NCBI GenBank assembly: GCA_001600495.1
Contig: BCKE01000107.1
Coordinates: forward strand, 1-45,311
Direction: 5' to 3'
Source of the DNA: Pilasporangium apinafurcum
Lineage: Eukaryota > Oomycota > Peronosporomycetes > Pythiales > Pythiaceae
Length of the DNA stretch: 45,311 nt
The position numbers and the translations under genes are program-made. Under the pieces are notes generated by a model. That model searched no databases. It was given only the letters and a program-made list of their open reading frames with translations, and was not told where the DNA came from. Positions 6,262-31,096 of the stretch are shown one piece after another. Each line of letters begins with the position of its first letter. Positions within the stretch are counted from its first letter, which is position 1.

Positions 6262-6635
6262 CTTGTCTGTTTTGGAGCTTTTGGAGAAGTAGCGATGGTC
6301 GGGAGGTCCTTCACCAAAATTCACTGGAGGGTGTCCTCTCACCCAATCAATTTCACATACGGGACATTTTCCCCTTGTTTTAATGTGTCCCTGATTTATA
6401 TGTTTGTAAAGTTAGGTACACGAGGGACTGCATCTTTGTGATCAACACTCTTGCAGCCATCTCTCTTATCTTATTTTCGCAAGCTGTCCGTCCGGCCAAA
6501 CCTGTCATACTGACTAGAAAACCTGACAAACGAATTACCTCGAAATCTTATTTTCAGTATGACCGACTGCAAATGTGTCATTGCAACCAGTATGGAGATT
6601 TTTTTTACTGGTATGTCATTCGACAATTCGCCACC
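6262..6635. other. Promoter region of RPL11 and left flank of the Fanzor relic
   Basis: The 374 bp between the RPL11 start (minus) and the Fanzor start (plus) hold no gene. Two inverted repeats are visible: GTCATACTG at 6504-6512 with CAGTATGAC at 6555-6563, and GGGACA at 6361-6366 with TGTCCC at 6386-6391. Either could be close to the left end of the mobile element, but no matching repeat was found on the right side. Confidence 0.4.
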
Positions 6636-8881
6636 ATGGCGTTAAAGCGCTCTCGATCGCAGGGAGCCCCCTAAGATCCTGGATCGGACTCGCAACATGA
6701 AGACACGGATACTGAAAACGACACCAAGCACACTCGCACACTCTCGAGACAAGAACAACGTGATGATGCCGAGCGCAAGGAAAGGGATTTTAACAAGCTC
6801 TGTGCGCAGTTCCGGAAAATGGTAATTCACGAGGATGAGATGTCTGCCATCAAGTGCACGCTTCACCAGCTCTTCGTCAAAGACTTGAACAAGCGACCGC
6901 AGCAACAACTGATCAAGGACGAGATTGAGCGAAGCGTGCGCGTATTACGACAGATCCAGATGGAAGCGTGGCATCTTATCAACTTTCATCTCTTGTAGTG
7001 TCTGGAGAGTCGTGACGATCCCGACCAAAACAAGTGCGTTGACTACCTTCCCGGTTTGATATCAACTTCTTCAATCGTTGTATTTCTGGGATCGGGATCA
7101 ACCAGTTTATTCCATCTAAGGGTGAAGATATCGCGCTCAACGAGAGCATTAGTCTCTTCCGACAATAGCGCGAGAGACAAGCTGGGTATCAACGTCCAAC
7201 TGTCGTGAACTGGGACATGTCCAAAAACGCGCTCAGCATGCAGATGAAGACGAACGCGCACAATATGATTGTTCTGCATTTCTACCGCCGTCTCTCCCGA
7301 TATGTCAAGCTGCGCTACGACCAACCGATGAAGGGCATCGTGCACATTTTGATTCGTGAAGCGTTTCAGCAGTGAGGACCCAGACGTGAAGTTGCGATGA
7401 TGGTACGAGAATGGTTGGGAAAGGAGCCATCAATCGACAACATTGAACGTGATCTCACGTATTTTATCGTCAAGCTGTACGAGATGCTGGTGTACATGGA
7501 GAGTCGTCAAGATGAAGAGTCCAACATCAAGGGCAACCGTGTTTTCTCTCTATTTCCTGTGGCAACGTTATTTATTCCCGCACATATCGCGATCGACTCT
7601 TCCGTTCTCCATCAGATGTGGACCCGAATTCACCAACAGCTCAAGCAAGAAAAGCGAGTCGATCGTGACCTGTTCAAGAAAATTTTAGTGGAAGGGGAGC
7701 GTGGGTTGAAGGTGCCTTCGAATAAGGAGTTCCAGCTATTTCGTGATGATCGCTGGCGAGGGTACTTTGATATTTCCAAGTTCGAGACCGGGAGATGGGA
7801 ATTTGCGCACTACATTACGACCAACGGATACGATGTGTTCGTCTTGCGCAAGCGAGATGTTATCGGTGGAGAGAACCCTTATCTGTCCAAGAAGGAGTTC
7901 GACCCGAAGATCGCACGAAATTTCTGCGCAACCAAGATCATTGGAATTGATCTCGACATGCATGCACTGTGCACAACTGCCACTGTCCGCACGTTGGAAG
8001 ACGACAGGTTTCGCCCACGGCAGTTTTTTCGATTTCGGAAGAAGGAGCGAGTTGCAGCTACGCGGAAACGTTCATCTCGACGCAGGAAGAAGAGACTCCT
8101 ACGACAGAAGAGACGTAAATCGGCTGGACCGGTGACATGAAGAGTTCATCTACAAGGTACGAATGGAAAACGCAGTCGTGGTCATCAATTGCTCGACATG
8201 TACGCCATCACGCAGATCTCGACTCGCGAGTATCGTCATCTTGCTGGATTCAACAGGGTTCGCGCTTGGAATGAAGGCATCAAACAACATGAAGTTGCGT
8301 ATGGAACCCTGATGCATGGCATGCCCTCTTTCAAAACCGCGTCCTCTTCACGATACTTTGAGCGTCTCAAGTTCGTATGGNCACACATCAACTGGCTTAT
8401 TGANTTTTGCTCACGCCATGCTTTCCGGAAGTGNCGCTTCTACCNGTACGTGTACAAGGCTAAGGCNTTGAGTCACNTGGNGGNNCGCATTGTACCCGTT
8501 GCGAGCAAGAACACGNTGGTCGNTTNTGGAAACTGGAGTTGTCATGATGGCATCAAGGGCCACGGTACCGGACCCNTCAAAGCGCTCAAGAAGGAAATGG
8601 CAAAGCGCGCTACCGTTCGTTCCGTCGACGACTTTCGTACAAGCAAGCGATGTTTCCACTGTCACGCTGAACTTTCGAAGGTAGTCTTCCCGAAAATGGT
8701 CAACGGCGTTCCCGATGGCACAATTGAATCTCGATCCGTTTTGCACTGTGAATCCAGTGAATGCAAGACGTTTTGGGATCGCGACGTGAACGCTTCGCTG
8801 AATATTATGCGCGTGACGACAGAACTTTTCAACAATCGAGCAAGACCAGAGTACTTGCAACGAGAATCAAGTGAGTCGTAG
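6636..8881 (+). pseudogene. Broken Fanzor (eukaryotic TnpB-like RuvC nuclease) gene
   Basis: The frame opens at an ATG with good context (CCACCATGG) and can be followed to a stop at 8879-8881 only by reading through in-frame stops at 6672, 6996, 7166, 7373 and 8138 and one frame change near 7050. The recognisable part is C-terminal. RuvC-I is KIIGIDLDMHA, with its Asp, near 7937. A very basic stretch resembling a nuclear localisation signal covers about 8060-8125. GNWSCHDGIKGHG lies near 8528. VDDFRTSKRCFHC is followed by CESSECKTFWDRDVNASLNI near 8630-8810, i.e. the four-Cys zinc ribbon and RuvC-III of TnpB/Fanzor proteins. Fanzors are RNA-guided DNA endonucleases carried by eukaryotic transposons. 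The acidic residue before FRTS is Asp, whereas from memory most relatives have Glu. Thirteen ambiguous bases (8381-8576) hide part of RuvC-II. Fanzor rather than a recent bacterial TnpB is inferred from length, the basic region and host. Confidence 0.85.
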
Positions 8882-8895
8882 AAGCGCAAAAAAAG

Positions 8896-9002
8896 CGTGA
8901 GCTCGGAGTCTTCAGACTTGAACCTGCTCACACGGTACAGTCCTTATTCTAGGTGTAGCCACTTGGTAGGCGCAACTCGCGAAGCGAGTTGGAGTAACCT
9001 AG
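8896..9002 (+). ncRNA. Candidate Fanzor guide-RNA (fRNA/omega-like) scaffold
   Basis: Starting 15 bases after the Fanzor stop codon the sequence folds into nested hairpins. GTGAGC at 8897-8902 pairs with GCTCAC at 8926-8931 and encloses AGTCT/AGACT (8907-8911 with 8914-8918). CTAGGT at 8949-8954 pairs with ACCTAG at 8997-9002 and encloses a perfect 8-bp stem, CAACTCGC (8973-8980), loop GAA, GCGAGTTG (8984-8991). Known TnpB and Fanzor systems produce their guide RNA from the 3' end of the gene and the adjoining element end, so position and structure fit. This is inference: no transcript or conserved copy can be seen from one sequence. Confidence 0.45.
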
Positions 9003-9036
9003 TTCCAGTGTTAAAAGGACAAAAATGGAACTTGAT

Positions 9037-9056
9037 GTGCGCTAAGGATAGCGCAC
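9037..9056. repeat. Perfect 8-bp inverted repeat (hairpin)
   Basis: GTGCGCTA (9037-9044), loop AGGA, TAGCGCAC (9049-9056) form a perfect GC-rich stem 156 bases after the Fanzor stop. It could be a subterminal hairpin of the element, or part of the guide-RNA region. It could also be 5' regulatory sequence of the membrane-protein gene that starts at 9205. Confidence 0.7.
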
Positions 9057-9204
9057 TTGAGCAGCAGTAATTGAAAATCATCGAAACAATAATTGGCGAT
9101 GTTGGTAGACTGATTTTAGTATATTTTGTGTTGGTGGAGAGACCATTTGTTGCTATTTTTTTTCTTGTGCCACCATCTGCATTAGGTGAAAGCAATAAAA
9201 GAGA

Positions 9205-10989
9205 ATGAAGACAAAGAGAGAGCAAAATTCGACGCCTACTATACGAAATGTATCCATAGTGATAGCGCCGAAACGCAATCGCAAGCGAACGTTATCGATA
9301 ATCGCCAACAGCGTCGTATTACCAATCGTAGAACGACCAAAGGAACCGCAGGTTCAAATGTCAGAGCAACCTCAATTGCCATCAAATCATAAAGATGAGT
9401 CTGAAATGGCCATCAGAGCGTCGACTACGGTGAAAGAGACAAGAGTGAGCAAGAGGAGAGCGACTGATTCAAAAGTATCGTATTTTACCACAGGATGGTC
9501 AGTATTCTGCAAGTTGGACGTGTGGCGTCGAGCGCTGTCGATGCATGTGCTATTGCTGCGGAATGTGCTTGCCTGTATCGCTGTTGCCTGGGCAGCGAAT
9601 TATTTCGTCCATTTGGGGAATGTTTTTACATTACGCGCGTCAGAATATCAGTCAAGGAGCTCATTGCTTGTTGCAAATTTGGTATGGACAAATTTGCTAT
9701 TTTGTTTGATCATAGTGTTTGTTCAAACAACGGTCCTGCTTCCCAACAGCTTCATTGCTTGTTCGAATCGAAAGCCTAGTGTGTGGTTTTGCGTCAAAAG
9801 ATTGATTTGCAGATCGTATCGATATTATGTGATATCTCTACTTTGTATGATCGCAACTGGCGTCGCTGCTGTGGAATCAATTCCTGTGAAATTGCAAAAA
9901 TTCAAGTTTGATTTCTACGTGGCGATCCTGTGCAATCACATCTACACTACAGGGATACTCTTAGTCACTAAACAGATCTATCGGCAAGAGACCGTAGAGG
10001 GAAGAGAGCGACAGCAAGCACAACAAGGTTTACCGTCTTTACCTGCGGCTGCGATGCTCCATCAGTCAAAAACACCTCTCAAACCCAAGCGAAAAGCAGG
10101 CTTCTGGCGAACATATTGGCAAAACATACCGAAAGTTCTCTCTCTCGTTTTTGCGGGGGGATACACTAGTGTTGTCAGCCAAAGCGGCCTTTTTGACAAT
10201 TCCTATGCAACGACAGTGTTTGTTGTGATCAGCTTACTCGCAAAACTGTTTATTCAGGAGCTCGCCAAAAGTTACCTCTTACGGAGAAATGTGCAAAGTC
10301 TACGCACCATGTCTGTTCTTGTGGGTTTACCAACCGTACTCATCGACACGCAAGTACGCATTGTGCTTCTTGGTGCTCCAAACAATAAGTATATTGCGGT
10401 CGGGACTATTGTGATGGCGTGTGTGGAAATTGTGTTACGTGTCTCAAAAGCAGCCCTGGTGCAAACAGAGATTCGACAACTCTACAAACAGATTGAGCAA
10501 CCGCGATTAGTACATGCAAATGACGTCTCTGTGGCTACAACTCGTGCTTTGAAAGCTCGCTATGAACGATGGAAGCGACAGGTGGTGTCTTTGCACACTG
10601 CAGAAGTAAATGCCGACATGTATGCAGAATATATTGCCATTGGATGCTCCGCCTCAATCTTGTACTTCTACGGTCACCATCCAAAATATCGTCTCAAATC
10701 GATGGCTTTGTCGTATTCCAACGCTTCTGTATCGTCGTCTAGCTCATCTGGTGAGGTGGAATCTAATGCTACAGTAAGCAGCAGTGTGCAATCAACATCC
10801 ACACAAGTACGCAACTTTGCATTCCAAGTCTGTGTTGAAGTGGTTGTTGACTATATCGCCTGTGCGTTGGAGACAGCACTAGGCATTGAAGTGGATAATC
10901 TTCGCAAGTTAAGTTCGTTCTTTGCACTCTTCTTCATGACATCAGCTGTGATCAATATCGAGATATCGGCAACTATATATCTGGCATGA
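9205..10989 (+). CDS. Multi-span membrane protein, unknown family (paralogue 1)
   Basis: This intronless frame encodes 594 residues: a basic, soluble first 100 residues and then about ten hydrophobic segments. These begin at LLLRNVLACIAVAWAANY and end at FFALFFMTSAVINIEIS near the C-terminus. A soluble, basic loop lies between segments 3 and 4, and a Ser-rich loop (SVSSSSSSGEV) before the last two. It is clearly homologous to 19747-21525. The shared blocks include WTNLLFC, RKPSVWFC, KLFIQELAK, LIDTQVRIV and MYAEYIAIGCSASIL. In one 61-residue stretch I count about 34 identical positions. I do not recognise the family or a transport signature. Start: the first ATG gives an N-terminal tail similar in length to that of the paralogue; a Met about 50 residues later is also possible. 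The promoter must lie in the 323 bp behind the Fanzor relic. Confidence 0.82.
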   Translation: MKTKREQNSTPTIRNVSIVIAPKRNRKRTLSIIANSVVLPIVERPKEPQVQMSEQPQLPSNHKDESEMAIRASTTVKETRVSKRRATDSKVSYFTTGWSVFCKLDVWRRALSMHVLLLRNVLACIAVAWAANYFVHLGNVFTLRASEYQSRSSLLVANLVWTNLLFCLIIVFVQTTVLLPNSFIACSNRKPSVWFCVKRLICRSYRYYVISLLCMIATGVAAVESIPVKLQKFKFDFYVAILCNHIYTTGILLVTKQIYRQETVEGRERQQAQQGLPSLPAAAMLHQSKTPLKPKRKAGFWRTYWQNIPKVLSLVFAGGYTSVVSQSGLFDNSYATTVFVVISLLAKLFIQELAKSYLLRRNVQSLRTMSVLVGLPTVLIDTQVRIVLLGAPNNKYIAVGTIVMACVEIVLRVSKAALVQTEIRQLYKQIEQPRLVHANDVSVATTRALKARYERWKRQVVSLHTAEVNADMYAEYIAIGCSASILYFYGHHPKYRLKSMALSYSNASVSSSSSSGEVESNATVSSSVQSTSTQVRNFAFQVCVEVVVDYIACALETALGIEVDNLRKLSSFFALFFMTSAVINIEISATIYLA

Positions 10990-29044: not shown

Positions 29045-31096
29045 CTTGCTTCCGGAGGAAGATGTCTATGACTCTCTCCTGGCTGCAGAGACTGCTATTA
29101 ATTACTTTGTAATCCAACAAGGATACGCCGTCGGTGGTCGTCGTCGCTCCAAACACGACAATCGGGACGAAATCTGAAAAGTCTGGCTTTGTTGTGCCCA
29201 TGGGCGCTCGTATGACAACCATCGTGAATATCTGACCGACGAAACAAGGTTGAAACAAACCAGTACGCGATGTGGAGGCTGTCCTTGGGCAGTGACAATT
29301 AAGTGAGAAGCCGACTCAAATGATGTGAATAGGCGTCATCAGTGGCGGGTTACTGTAGAAAACGCTACCCACAACCACGAAGCTGCTGTTAACCCTTCAG
29401 TCTATCCCTCAGCTCGAAAACTGCGCTTGGAAGATTTGAATACCATTCAACAAATGACCAACGCCGGTGCAGCTCCCAAAGCCATCGTTGCGACGTTACG
29501 GCAGCAGAATCCTGATTCTCATATCATTTCAAGAGATGTCTACAATGCAAGAGCAAGAGCTCGAGAAAAAATCTTTCTGGCTACACTCCACTGGAAGCAC
29601 TTTTAGACGTTTTGCAGATGAACAACATAATGCACGACTATCAACGCAATTCTGATGGGAAGATTACACATTTATTTCTTGCGTTACCTTCTTCAATAGG
29701 TTTGGCGAGAGAATTTCCTGACGTGTTGCTTATGGACTCTACGTACAAAACCAACCGGTAAGAACTTACACATTTTGCTGTATTTCATCGCAACTCATAT
29801 CGGATTTTCAGATTTAGAATGCCATTACTGCATATGATCGGGACGACGTGTACTCATAACAGCTTCTCTGTTGGTTTCTGCTTCATGAAAAATGAAACAG
29901 ACAGTGATTACGCTTGGGCGCTCTCGCGAGCTCGAGGCATCTATCATAGGCGGCAACCGAAGACCATAATCACTGACGGAAATCTTGCTCTGATGAATGC
30001 CGTTGAGAATATCTTCAGGGGCTCAACCCACATTTTGCGTTCTTGGCACATCGAAAAAAATATTGTCGCTAATCTCAAAAGGCATTTTTCCACGAAACAA
30101 AAACTTGACAATTTTTTGAAGGTTTGGAAAGAACTCATACGTGATTCTATAGACGAAACAGCGTTTGAAGCGAACTGGGAACGCCTACAACAGGATTTTG
30201 CTGCACATCATCCCGAAGTTGTAGCGTATTTGGACTCAACGTGGATTCCACATAAGGAAAAGTTTGCACTCGCATGGACGAAGCGTGCTTTACACTTCGG
30301 GCATCTGGGTATTTCGCGTGCTGAAGGAAAGCATGGGTCAGTCAAGGGATGGATTATGGTGTCCACTGGAGATCTCAAAGATGTCTACGAAAAAATGTGT
30401 TTGGCTGCTCAACACGAAGAGAAAGATATTCGCTATCAAATTGCTTTCAATCAAGCGAATAGCCTGCTCATCCTTTCTGATGACATCTGGGCAACTGTAA
30501 AAAGACGAGTGTCTCATTACGCTCTGAAAAGGGCTCACCAAGAATACGTCAAAGCAAAACATCTAATCGTTTCCGAAAATGGCACATCCTGCTCTGGGAC
30601 ACTTCGCACAACAATGGGTTTGCCATGTTCTCACGAGCTTAAGGCTATGATGGACTCTGGGGGTCGCCTGATGTTAGAGCACTTCGATCAGCATTGGTGG
30701 CTGGTCAAGCCTGTTGTTGATGCGCCTTTGGAGAGTATGTCTATCAAAAGATCTTTACCAGAAATTTCCAGCATTATCCAGTCTCAACACGACGATATGG
30801 CGTCCCATCAACAGCGCTTGCTGCAGCAGCATATGTTTCAATTCTCACAGAGTCCTTTGCTGGAAGCGGTTCAAGATCCACGACTAACCCGTTCCCGCGA
30901 CAGGCCTGTGCGATCAACTGCTGGTGTCGGATCCACTAGTACTCGAAGAGATCCTTCACTATTCGAGACAGCGGAAAGAGCACGACGAAAGTGCCGCATT
31001 TGCAATCAAGTGGGACATAACTGCAGAACATGCCCAGAGCGAAGCGGTGTTGATGATTTGGAAGGCGCCAAAATGCACAAGACTCAAGGATTGTAA
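29034..31096 (+). pseudogene. MULE transposase gene with two stops and one frameshift
   Basis: From the ATG at 29034 the frame runs through in-frame TGA codons at 29175 and 29304. It then needs a one-base shift in an A6 run (29566-29571) to continue as SGYTPLEALLDVLQ. A 54-bp intron (29758-29811) joins MDSTYKTNR to FRMPLLHMIGT. The N-terminal part is a FAR1-type zinc-binding domain (VWLCCAHGRSY, TRCGGCPWAVTIK, ATHNHEA). The MULE catalytic Asp-Asp-Glu residues appear in LLMDSTYKTN, IITDGNLALM and SRAEGKHGSVKGW. A SWIM-like finger with CSGTLRTTMGLPCSHEL follows, and a CCHC knuckle (CRICNQVGHNCRTCP) is near the end. Three small lesions in an otherwise intact gene could be real inactivation or, for the homopolymer, sequence error. 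Confidence 0.85.

Follow-up and report, generated by a model that had tools for sequence, protein, structure and literature searches.

A probable decayed Fanzor guide-RNA end at the 3' terminus of a transposon family with many ghost copies in Pilasporangium apinafurcum

The window analysed here is a 45,311-nucleotide stretch of the Pilasporangium apinafurcum genome (assembly GCA_001600495.1, contig BCKE01000107.1) with eukaryotic gene content, exemplified by a gene for the AP-3 beta subunit. A MULE transposase domain (51.6 bits) is found in the frame 29819-31096. A tRNA gene scan of the window returned none and an Rfam scan no family above its gathering score; two low-threshold Rfam matches were taken as chance. 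The subject of this work is a transposon copy of 2543 bp at 6460-9002 (+ strand), assigned to a family designated A, which carries a Fanzor pseudogene followed by a cluster of stem-loops. Its limits are the points at which similarity with 39 other loci breaks in searches of the organism's own genome (36.5 Mb in 136 contigs).

The Fanzor1-type pseudogene occupies 6636-8881 (+), with a start codon placed by inference and the stop at 8879-8881. Its homology is that of the RuvC/TNB region of Fanzor1 proteins: Pfam Cas12f1-like_TNB is matched at 35.8 bits and OrfB_IS605 at 21.1 bits, under its cut-off of 30.5, and 8141-8878 matches a Parasitella Fanzor1 (E 5e-5) and SpuFz1 in the PDB (E 0.041). The gene cannot encode a protein, being broken by in-frame stops (those at 7373-7375 and 8138-8140 are two of them), a frame shift upstream, and 13 N. 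The latter are single N bases at 8381-8576 and perhaps represent collapsed repeat reads. Forward open frames do not exceed 516 aa in the window copy and in loci L021-L027 (for L026, a first listing gave 738 aa with four stops, a frame that a six-frame recheck did not find), and the frame of L115 has six stops.

Fanzor-like genes are numerous elsewhere in this genome, with at least 150 PF07282 matches scored among 852 candidates, those listed all lying above the cut-off. Family B, comprising the 3' ends L061-L079, encodes a protein about 40% identical to the window Fanzor (35-43% over the C-terminal part). Family C (L060 and L080) has a Fanzor frame open over 678 aa, and its protein matches the PDB chains of SpuFz1 (E 1.3e-8) and GtFz1 (E 3.8e-5). 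The frame at L080 (G000:C59:249180-252000, minus strand) is a candidate protein partner; its stop is seen in L060, a few codons on. In yet another family (e.g., L089, L091-L102), the 3' ends are nearly identical (..GATCTCCTTAGGCG) and several frames remain open over 500-800 aa; this family may be young or active.

An initial annotation had described four inverted repeats in the 160 bases past the Fanzor stop, and all four are found in place. Stem-loop 1 (SL1; 8895-8931, +) pairs GTGAGC (8897-8902) with GCTCAC (8926-8931) and encloses an inner hairpin formed by GAGTC (8906-8910) and GACTT (8915-8919). The small stem 2 (SL2; 8932-8945, +) is ACGG..CCGT in the family A majority and in family B, and reads ACGG..CCTT in the window, with one of four pairs lost. 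Farther downstream, CTAGGT (8949-8954) and ACCTAG (8997-9002) flank a perfect 8-bp stem, CAACTCGC (8973-8980) with GCGAGTTG (8984-8991), and a second perfect 8-bp stem is formed by GTGCGCTA (9037-9044) and TAGCGCAC (9049-9056).

The excess of these stems over chance is mixed and depends on the bounds chosen. Stretches that take in the last of them, a host-flank stem as described below, beat most shuffled controls (8850-9100: z -1.99, 5 of 200 shuffles equally good; 8885-9065: z -2.76, 1 of 200), but the element part stays close to its shuffles (8888-9002: z -2.00, 7 of 200; 8881-9002: z -1.16, 22 of 200; sister copy L110: z -0.57, 52 of 200). In the same kind of comparison, the + strand of family A folds no better than the - strand; in the family B majority, the Fanzor strand beats 200 of 200 shuffles and the opposite strand is equalled by 22 of 200. 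Element-only values of -0.57 to -2.00 agree with the notion that inverted repeats of this sort are common in 160 bases and functionless. For the cluster at large, that notion is highly improbable because the stems recur in copies of the family and the core recurs in family B, and for 8895-8945 it is disfavoured by the alignment shuffles given below. For 9037-9056, chance is probably the correct explanation.

The cluster straddles the element boundary at 9002 and hence consists of three different things rather than a single unit. When the genome was searched with 8400-9300, the best 40 of 80 candidates were scored, window included, and 39 of the 39 sister alignments among them stop at 9001-9011, mostly at 9003-9004. 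An element end just past the scaffold had been predicted, and 9002, where the sister copies lose similarity, is that end. T follows the terminal CTAG (8999-9002) in 37 of 40 copies, then unrelated sequence; the next position holds T or G in 32 of 40. A pattern made from 19 bases of the element end is found, with up to two mismatches, at 77 places or more genome-wide (at least 77, window included), and its reversal at one. The hairpin at 9037-9056, to which no strand is assigned, is host sequence since sister similarity ends at 9002, and its flank matches only itself; its inclusion in the scaffold by the initial annotation is not upheld. No empty site for the window copy was found in the assembly, the flanks 6398-6459 and 9003-9064 having matched only themselves. 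The window copy starts with T after CA and ends with CTAG before T, and no target duplication is seen. The 5' end differs among copies, so that 6460 is accurate to a few bases: starts are ragged (TC, the start of Helitron1 elements, in many copies, TT in others) and fall at differing points within a pyrimidine-rich stretch.

The segment 8949-9002 (+), in which CTAGGT and ACCTAG surround the hairpin and which ends in CTAG, is the terminal structure of the transposon. Under the definition of Helitron 3' ends in passages of PMC3627910, this tail looks like a Helitron1 3' end, which is CTRR with a subterminal hairpin: here the hairpin CAACTCGC-GAA-GCGAGTTG (8973-8991, +), situated 11 bases before the element end, is followed by 7 bases and then by CTAG (8999-9002). 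A precedes the element in 36 of 37 copies and T succeeds it in 37 of 40, a picture that insertion between A and T, as in Helitron1, would give. At the one approximate empty site, that of L025 in a family B copy, there is no duplication and about 9 bases are missing. The L025 copy (G000:C1:1187400-1192240) sits in the SL1 region of its family B host. The loop of the subterminal hairpin is GAA in 43 of 52 rows and TTC in 7 of 52, an exact inversion of the hairpin. The inverted rows (L032, L039, L040, L049, L054, L104, and L113) are spread over three deletion classes, reflecting recurrent hairpin inversion or exchange between these classes, and the inversion argues for handling of the hairpin at the DNA level.

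All the stems might then be 3' terminal hairpins of a rolling-circle (Helitron-like) transposon, with no role in RNA. The succession of hairpin, GAGTAAC, and CTAG, the insertion between A and T, the varying 5' end, and the DNA-level loop inversion across three deletion classes fit such an element. Such an element would account for 8949-9002 but not for 8895-8945, which is common to elements with different ends, and no Helitron-type partner was found in the genome; this explanation is clearly unlikely. The single PIF1 helicase match in the genome probably belongs to a host gene, and a Rep-domain search gave no match in the genome and none in its 14 controls. Because there is only one PIF1 match and the Rep search is silent in its controls as well, the terminus is called a Helitron-like end. 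Membership among the Helitrons was considered and not adopted, no autonomous partner having been found.

Fifty-two other family A loci were fetched (the 39 best DNA matches and 13 chosen ones), a part of the at least 77 ends. Eight of the 52 have almost the whole element, although L115 was fetched in part only, and the remaining 44 are internally deleted “ghosts”, that is, copies that have lost the Fanzor gene internally, kept the 3' end, and multiplied. The deletion joins approximately 6652 to 8577 in 32 of 52 loci, 6636 to 8694 in 8, and 6550 to 8727 in 2. L105 and L106 carry segments of the first class that were rearranged again: the inner stretch 8668-8877 no longer matches in L105, and L106 is without about 25 bases (8743-8769). 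The left breakpoints of the two larger classes (6636-6652) are located at or just past the presumed Fanzor start codon, 6636. All three classes retain at least the last 277 bp, and no locus with the terminal hairpin alone is present among the 52; with only three deletions, in part of the 77 loci, this is a hint and no proof that the hairpin alone does not suffice.

From the Fanzor stop (8879-8881) to the element end at 9002, the stem-loops lie 3' of the gene and on the same strand, the position of a Fanzor guide RNA. Their upstream part is homologous between families A and B, which share the order A-rich stretch, SL1, CACACGGT, SL2, and ATTCT. In family B, the end reads CCGTGGACA...GGAGTC-AACC-GACTT...TGTCCACACGG-TTAGG-CCGT-ATTCTGGTAATCGCCAG directly before TA. 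The family A majority reads GCGTGAGC...GGGGTC-TTCG-GACTT...GCTCACACGG-TACAGC-CCGT-ATTCTAGGTGTAGCCAG, and continues with a 40-base tail that contains the subterminal hairpin. Local alignment of the family A majority with family B scores 32 against a shuffle mean of 13.3, and that of the window row with family B scores 27 against 12.9; in each case 1 of 5000 shuffles reaches the score. In the window, as in family C, the motif CACACGGT begins 47 bases past the stop; in 10 of 17 family B loci the distance is 57 bases. Family C has GTGCG/CGCAC-ACGG after its stop; its sequence match is weak, with scores reached by 75 of 5000 shuffles for A-C, 20 of 5000 for window-C, and 561 of 5000 for B-C.

A covariance model (R2) built from 17 family B sequences only finds the same segment. 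Its top match in the whole window is 8891-8968 on the + strand (14.4 bits, E 0.34), and the next reaches 7.9 bits. With filters off, R2 scores 10.5-17.7 bits at the corresponding position in 13 of 16 family A loci, over a background of up to 7.9, and misses L026, L105, and L111; default filters reduce the yield to 8 of 20 family A loci. In family C, L060 yields only an off-place match of 7.2 bits. The 20 loci L083-L102, from other Fanzor families, were considered as scaffold relatives and set aside, since their 3' ends look different by eye and R2 gave at most 7.2 bits in the 10 of 20 scored. Among viral contigs no relative was confirmed, and 22 pattern matches failed tblastn.

The pairing of SL1 is maintained across the three families: 18 of 18 cells are paired with one row each for A, B, and C, one pair being AU/GC/CG and another GC/AU/GC, and slid versions of the stem show no such double changes. 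With three rows, two double changes are reached by 50 of 500 shuffles and the score by 21 of 500. SL1 measures 6 bp in A, 7 in B, and 6 with a GU pair in C, in line with a first stem of about 7 bp. Its loop in the family A majority is UUCG closed by C-G. A UUCG loop closed by C-G is an RNA-stabilising tetraloop. Within family A, the stems are kept in 51 distinct sister rows plus the window, with 97.4% of cells paired, but covariation inside the families is not significant, the two counts being reached by 54 and 45 of 500 shuffles in family A and by 233 and 202 of 500 in family B. Of the expectation that other copies would keep the stems and show compensatory changes, the first part is borne out, and for the second there is no significant signal within families; the folding energy of the element part, a third point of comparison, stays near that of shuffled sequence. 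Selection on the scaffold was not seen in the copies either, differences amounting to 2.7% in the scaffold and 2.0% in the former coding part over 49 rows. In four of 17 family B loci (L066, L071, L073, and L074), the protein frame stays open across the core, with its stop at the end of the element, and gene and RNA may overlap there.

The ends of families A and B differ (CTAG before T in A, CCAG before TA in B), and for that reason the shared core appears tied to the Fanzor gene and is unlikely to be a transposase site. Based on the homology between families and the compensatory pairs, the region 8895-8945 is probably a guide-RNA scaffold core that resembles SL1 and SL2 of the solved Fanzor1 RNAs. 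The candidate scaffold that the initial annotation had placed directly past the Fanzor stop thereby gains a probable core, while 8949-9002, which it had counted as scaffold too, forms the terminus of the transposon, with no more than a possible place in the RNA. We infer from sequence that the core acts as RNA and is bound by Fanzor; the homology of the core, the element end, the CA motif described next, and the copies are direct observations.

On the 5' side, CA precedes the element in 34 of the 37 copies with a recognisable 5' end (31 clear cases, with L036, L037, and L038 less certain), TA in 2 of 37, and CG in 1 of 37, relative to a background of 7.5% CA among the dinucleotides of those flanks; the boundary was placed by eye, which inflates the P value for CA. 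Three of the 40 copies (L035, L048, and L054) have other 5' ends and were left out of this count. L035 and L054 carry another 5' end, TGTAAAAGGGTAATCCTTTTACTGGCG..., together with TACTGGCG as at the family B terminus, and are possibly chimeric elements. A transposase target preference would look like the CA motif.

We propose that the 3' end of family A is composite, with a Fanzor1 guide-RNA scaffold core upstream and a transposon terminus that also closes as the last stem of the RNA, a reading to which we assign a probability of roughly 0.55. The core, 8895-8945 with SL1 and SL2, would be transcribed from the + strand as part of the Fanzor 3' untranslated region, and 8949-9002 would serve both as the DNA terminus and as the closing stem. 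Where the copy is functional, SL1 would be the binding site of Fanzor, and the RNA would run past the element end and draw its guide from the host DNA that starts at 9003. The CA upstream of the 5' end would be the target-adjacent motif read by Fanzor, and the complex would cleave versions of the site without an insertion. As ghosts keep only the ends, they would need Fanzor from elsewhere. If the RNA does reach the element end, the putative guide is 9003-9022 (+), host sequence that differs between copies, a position suggested in part by SpuFz1 as presented in PMC10432273.

The same core may instead end at an older junction, near 8962. At 8947-8962 (+), the alignments place TTCTAGGTGTAGCCAC, the counterpart of the family B 3' terminus (TTCTGGTAATCGCCAG before TA), now internal. 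Family A aligns with family B through TTCTAGGTGTAGCCAG and TTCTGGTAATCGCCAG, as far as the last base of B before TA, and this preservation of a B-like end 40 bases inside family A favours an internal junction. The next 40 bases of the tail would then be a fixed guide, useless or self-matching, and Fanzor would be passive cargo after capture of the right end by another transposon. The broken frames are compatible with cargo of this kind (none above 516 aa in the window copy and L021-L027, six stops in L115); the family C frame is open over 678 aa. On the other side, CTAGGT finds its partner in the six terminal bases of the element in 49-52 of 52 rows per pair (GU counted), giving a stem right before 9003; such variable stems before the guide are tolerated in solved Fanzor1 RNAs, according to passages of PMC11423790; and the CA before the 5' end is retained. 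A guide at 9003 is favoured by this terminal pairing and by the CA, and a junction near 8962 is rather unlikely.

The initial observation holds in part, and its reading is probably right as to kind: the locus would be the guide-RNA end of a Fanzor element, now decayed, in a family rich in ghosts. A more far-reaching proposal can be put forward only tentatively: the scaffold core may have moved between two unrelated kinds of end, one flanked by TA and one ending in CTAG; the RNA may have been rebuilt with the terminus as its last stem; and dozens of protein-less copies may be scattered guide-RNA genes that each take a separate guide from the host DNA.

The comparison with known systems draws on passages of the Fanzor literature (Bao and Jurka 2013, PMC3627910; Saito et al. 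2023, PMC10432273; NAR 2023, PMC10711439; Xu et al. 2024, PMC11423790). As in the SpuFz1 omegaRNA, the scaffold lies between the Fanzor stop and the right end, and the guide would come from the flank (PMC10432273). As in Spu-1 of Spizellomyces punctatus, CA is found upstream of the left end, and protein-less copies outnumber Fanzor copies; passages of the same source give 134 Spu-1 ghosts and 42 loci with a full or partial Fanzor, CA upstream of the left end in Spu-1 and its ghosts, and CATA as the demonstrated motif (PMC10432273). Spu-1 differs in its 30-nt inverted repeats and in having its expression shown (PMC10432273), whereas no such repeats were noticed here, the 3' end consists of a hairpin and CTAG, and the Fanzor genes looked at in family A are disrupted.

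The GtFz1, SpuFz1, and PpFz1 omegaRNAs, as described in passages of Xu et al., have in common a first stem-loop of seven base pairs, with variable stems before the guide, and on that description the RNA proposed here has a similar layout, a first stem-loop of about 7 bp and then variable stems (PMC11423790). SL2 of PpFz1 is as small as 4 bp, like SL2 here (PMC11423790). In contrast to these three, again compared by description, SL1 measures 6 bp in family A and 7 in family B and contains an inner hairpin. The Chlamydomonas elements CRe-1, CRe-2, and CRe-3 (Helitron2) likewise place Fanzor1 in Helitron-featured elements with frequent internal deletion, intact 3' ends, and ragged 5' ends (PMC3627910). 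Helitron2 has hairpins at both ends, and the CRe target is TTTT (PMC3627910), whereas family A has a 3' hairpin, a CTAG end, and a target in which insertion separates CA from T. Family B resembles, by the TA after its right end and by description, PUl-1 and PUl-4 of Pythium ultimum, in which Fanzor1 is carried by Tc/mariner elements (PMC3627910).

The kind of locus is already known from SpuFz1 and its ghosts, and its unusual part is the presence of a single scaffold core at transposon ends of two kinds, for which a limited search of the literature, in the parts of the papers at hand, found no report. The part common to differently ended elements (SL1, CACACGGT, and SL2) distinguishes the requirements of Fanzor from those of the transposon. 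Comparisons of this sort can reveal whether a carrier transposon, of whatever type, benefits from Fanzors and their RNA-only copies; for the ghost elements of Spizellomyces, Saito et al. raise this as a possibility (PMC10432273).
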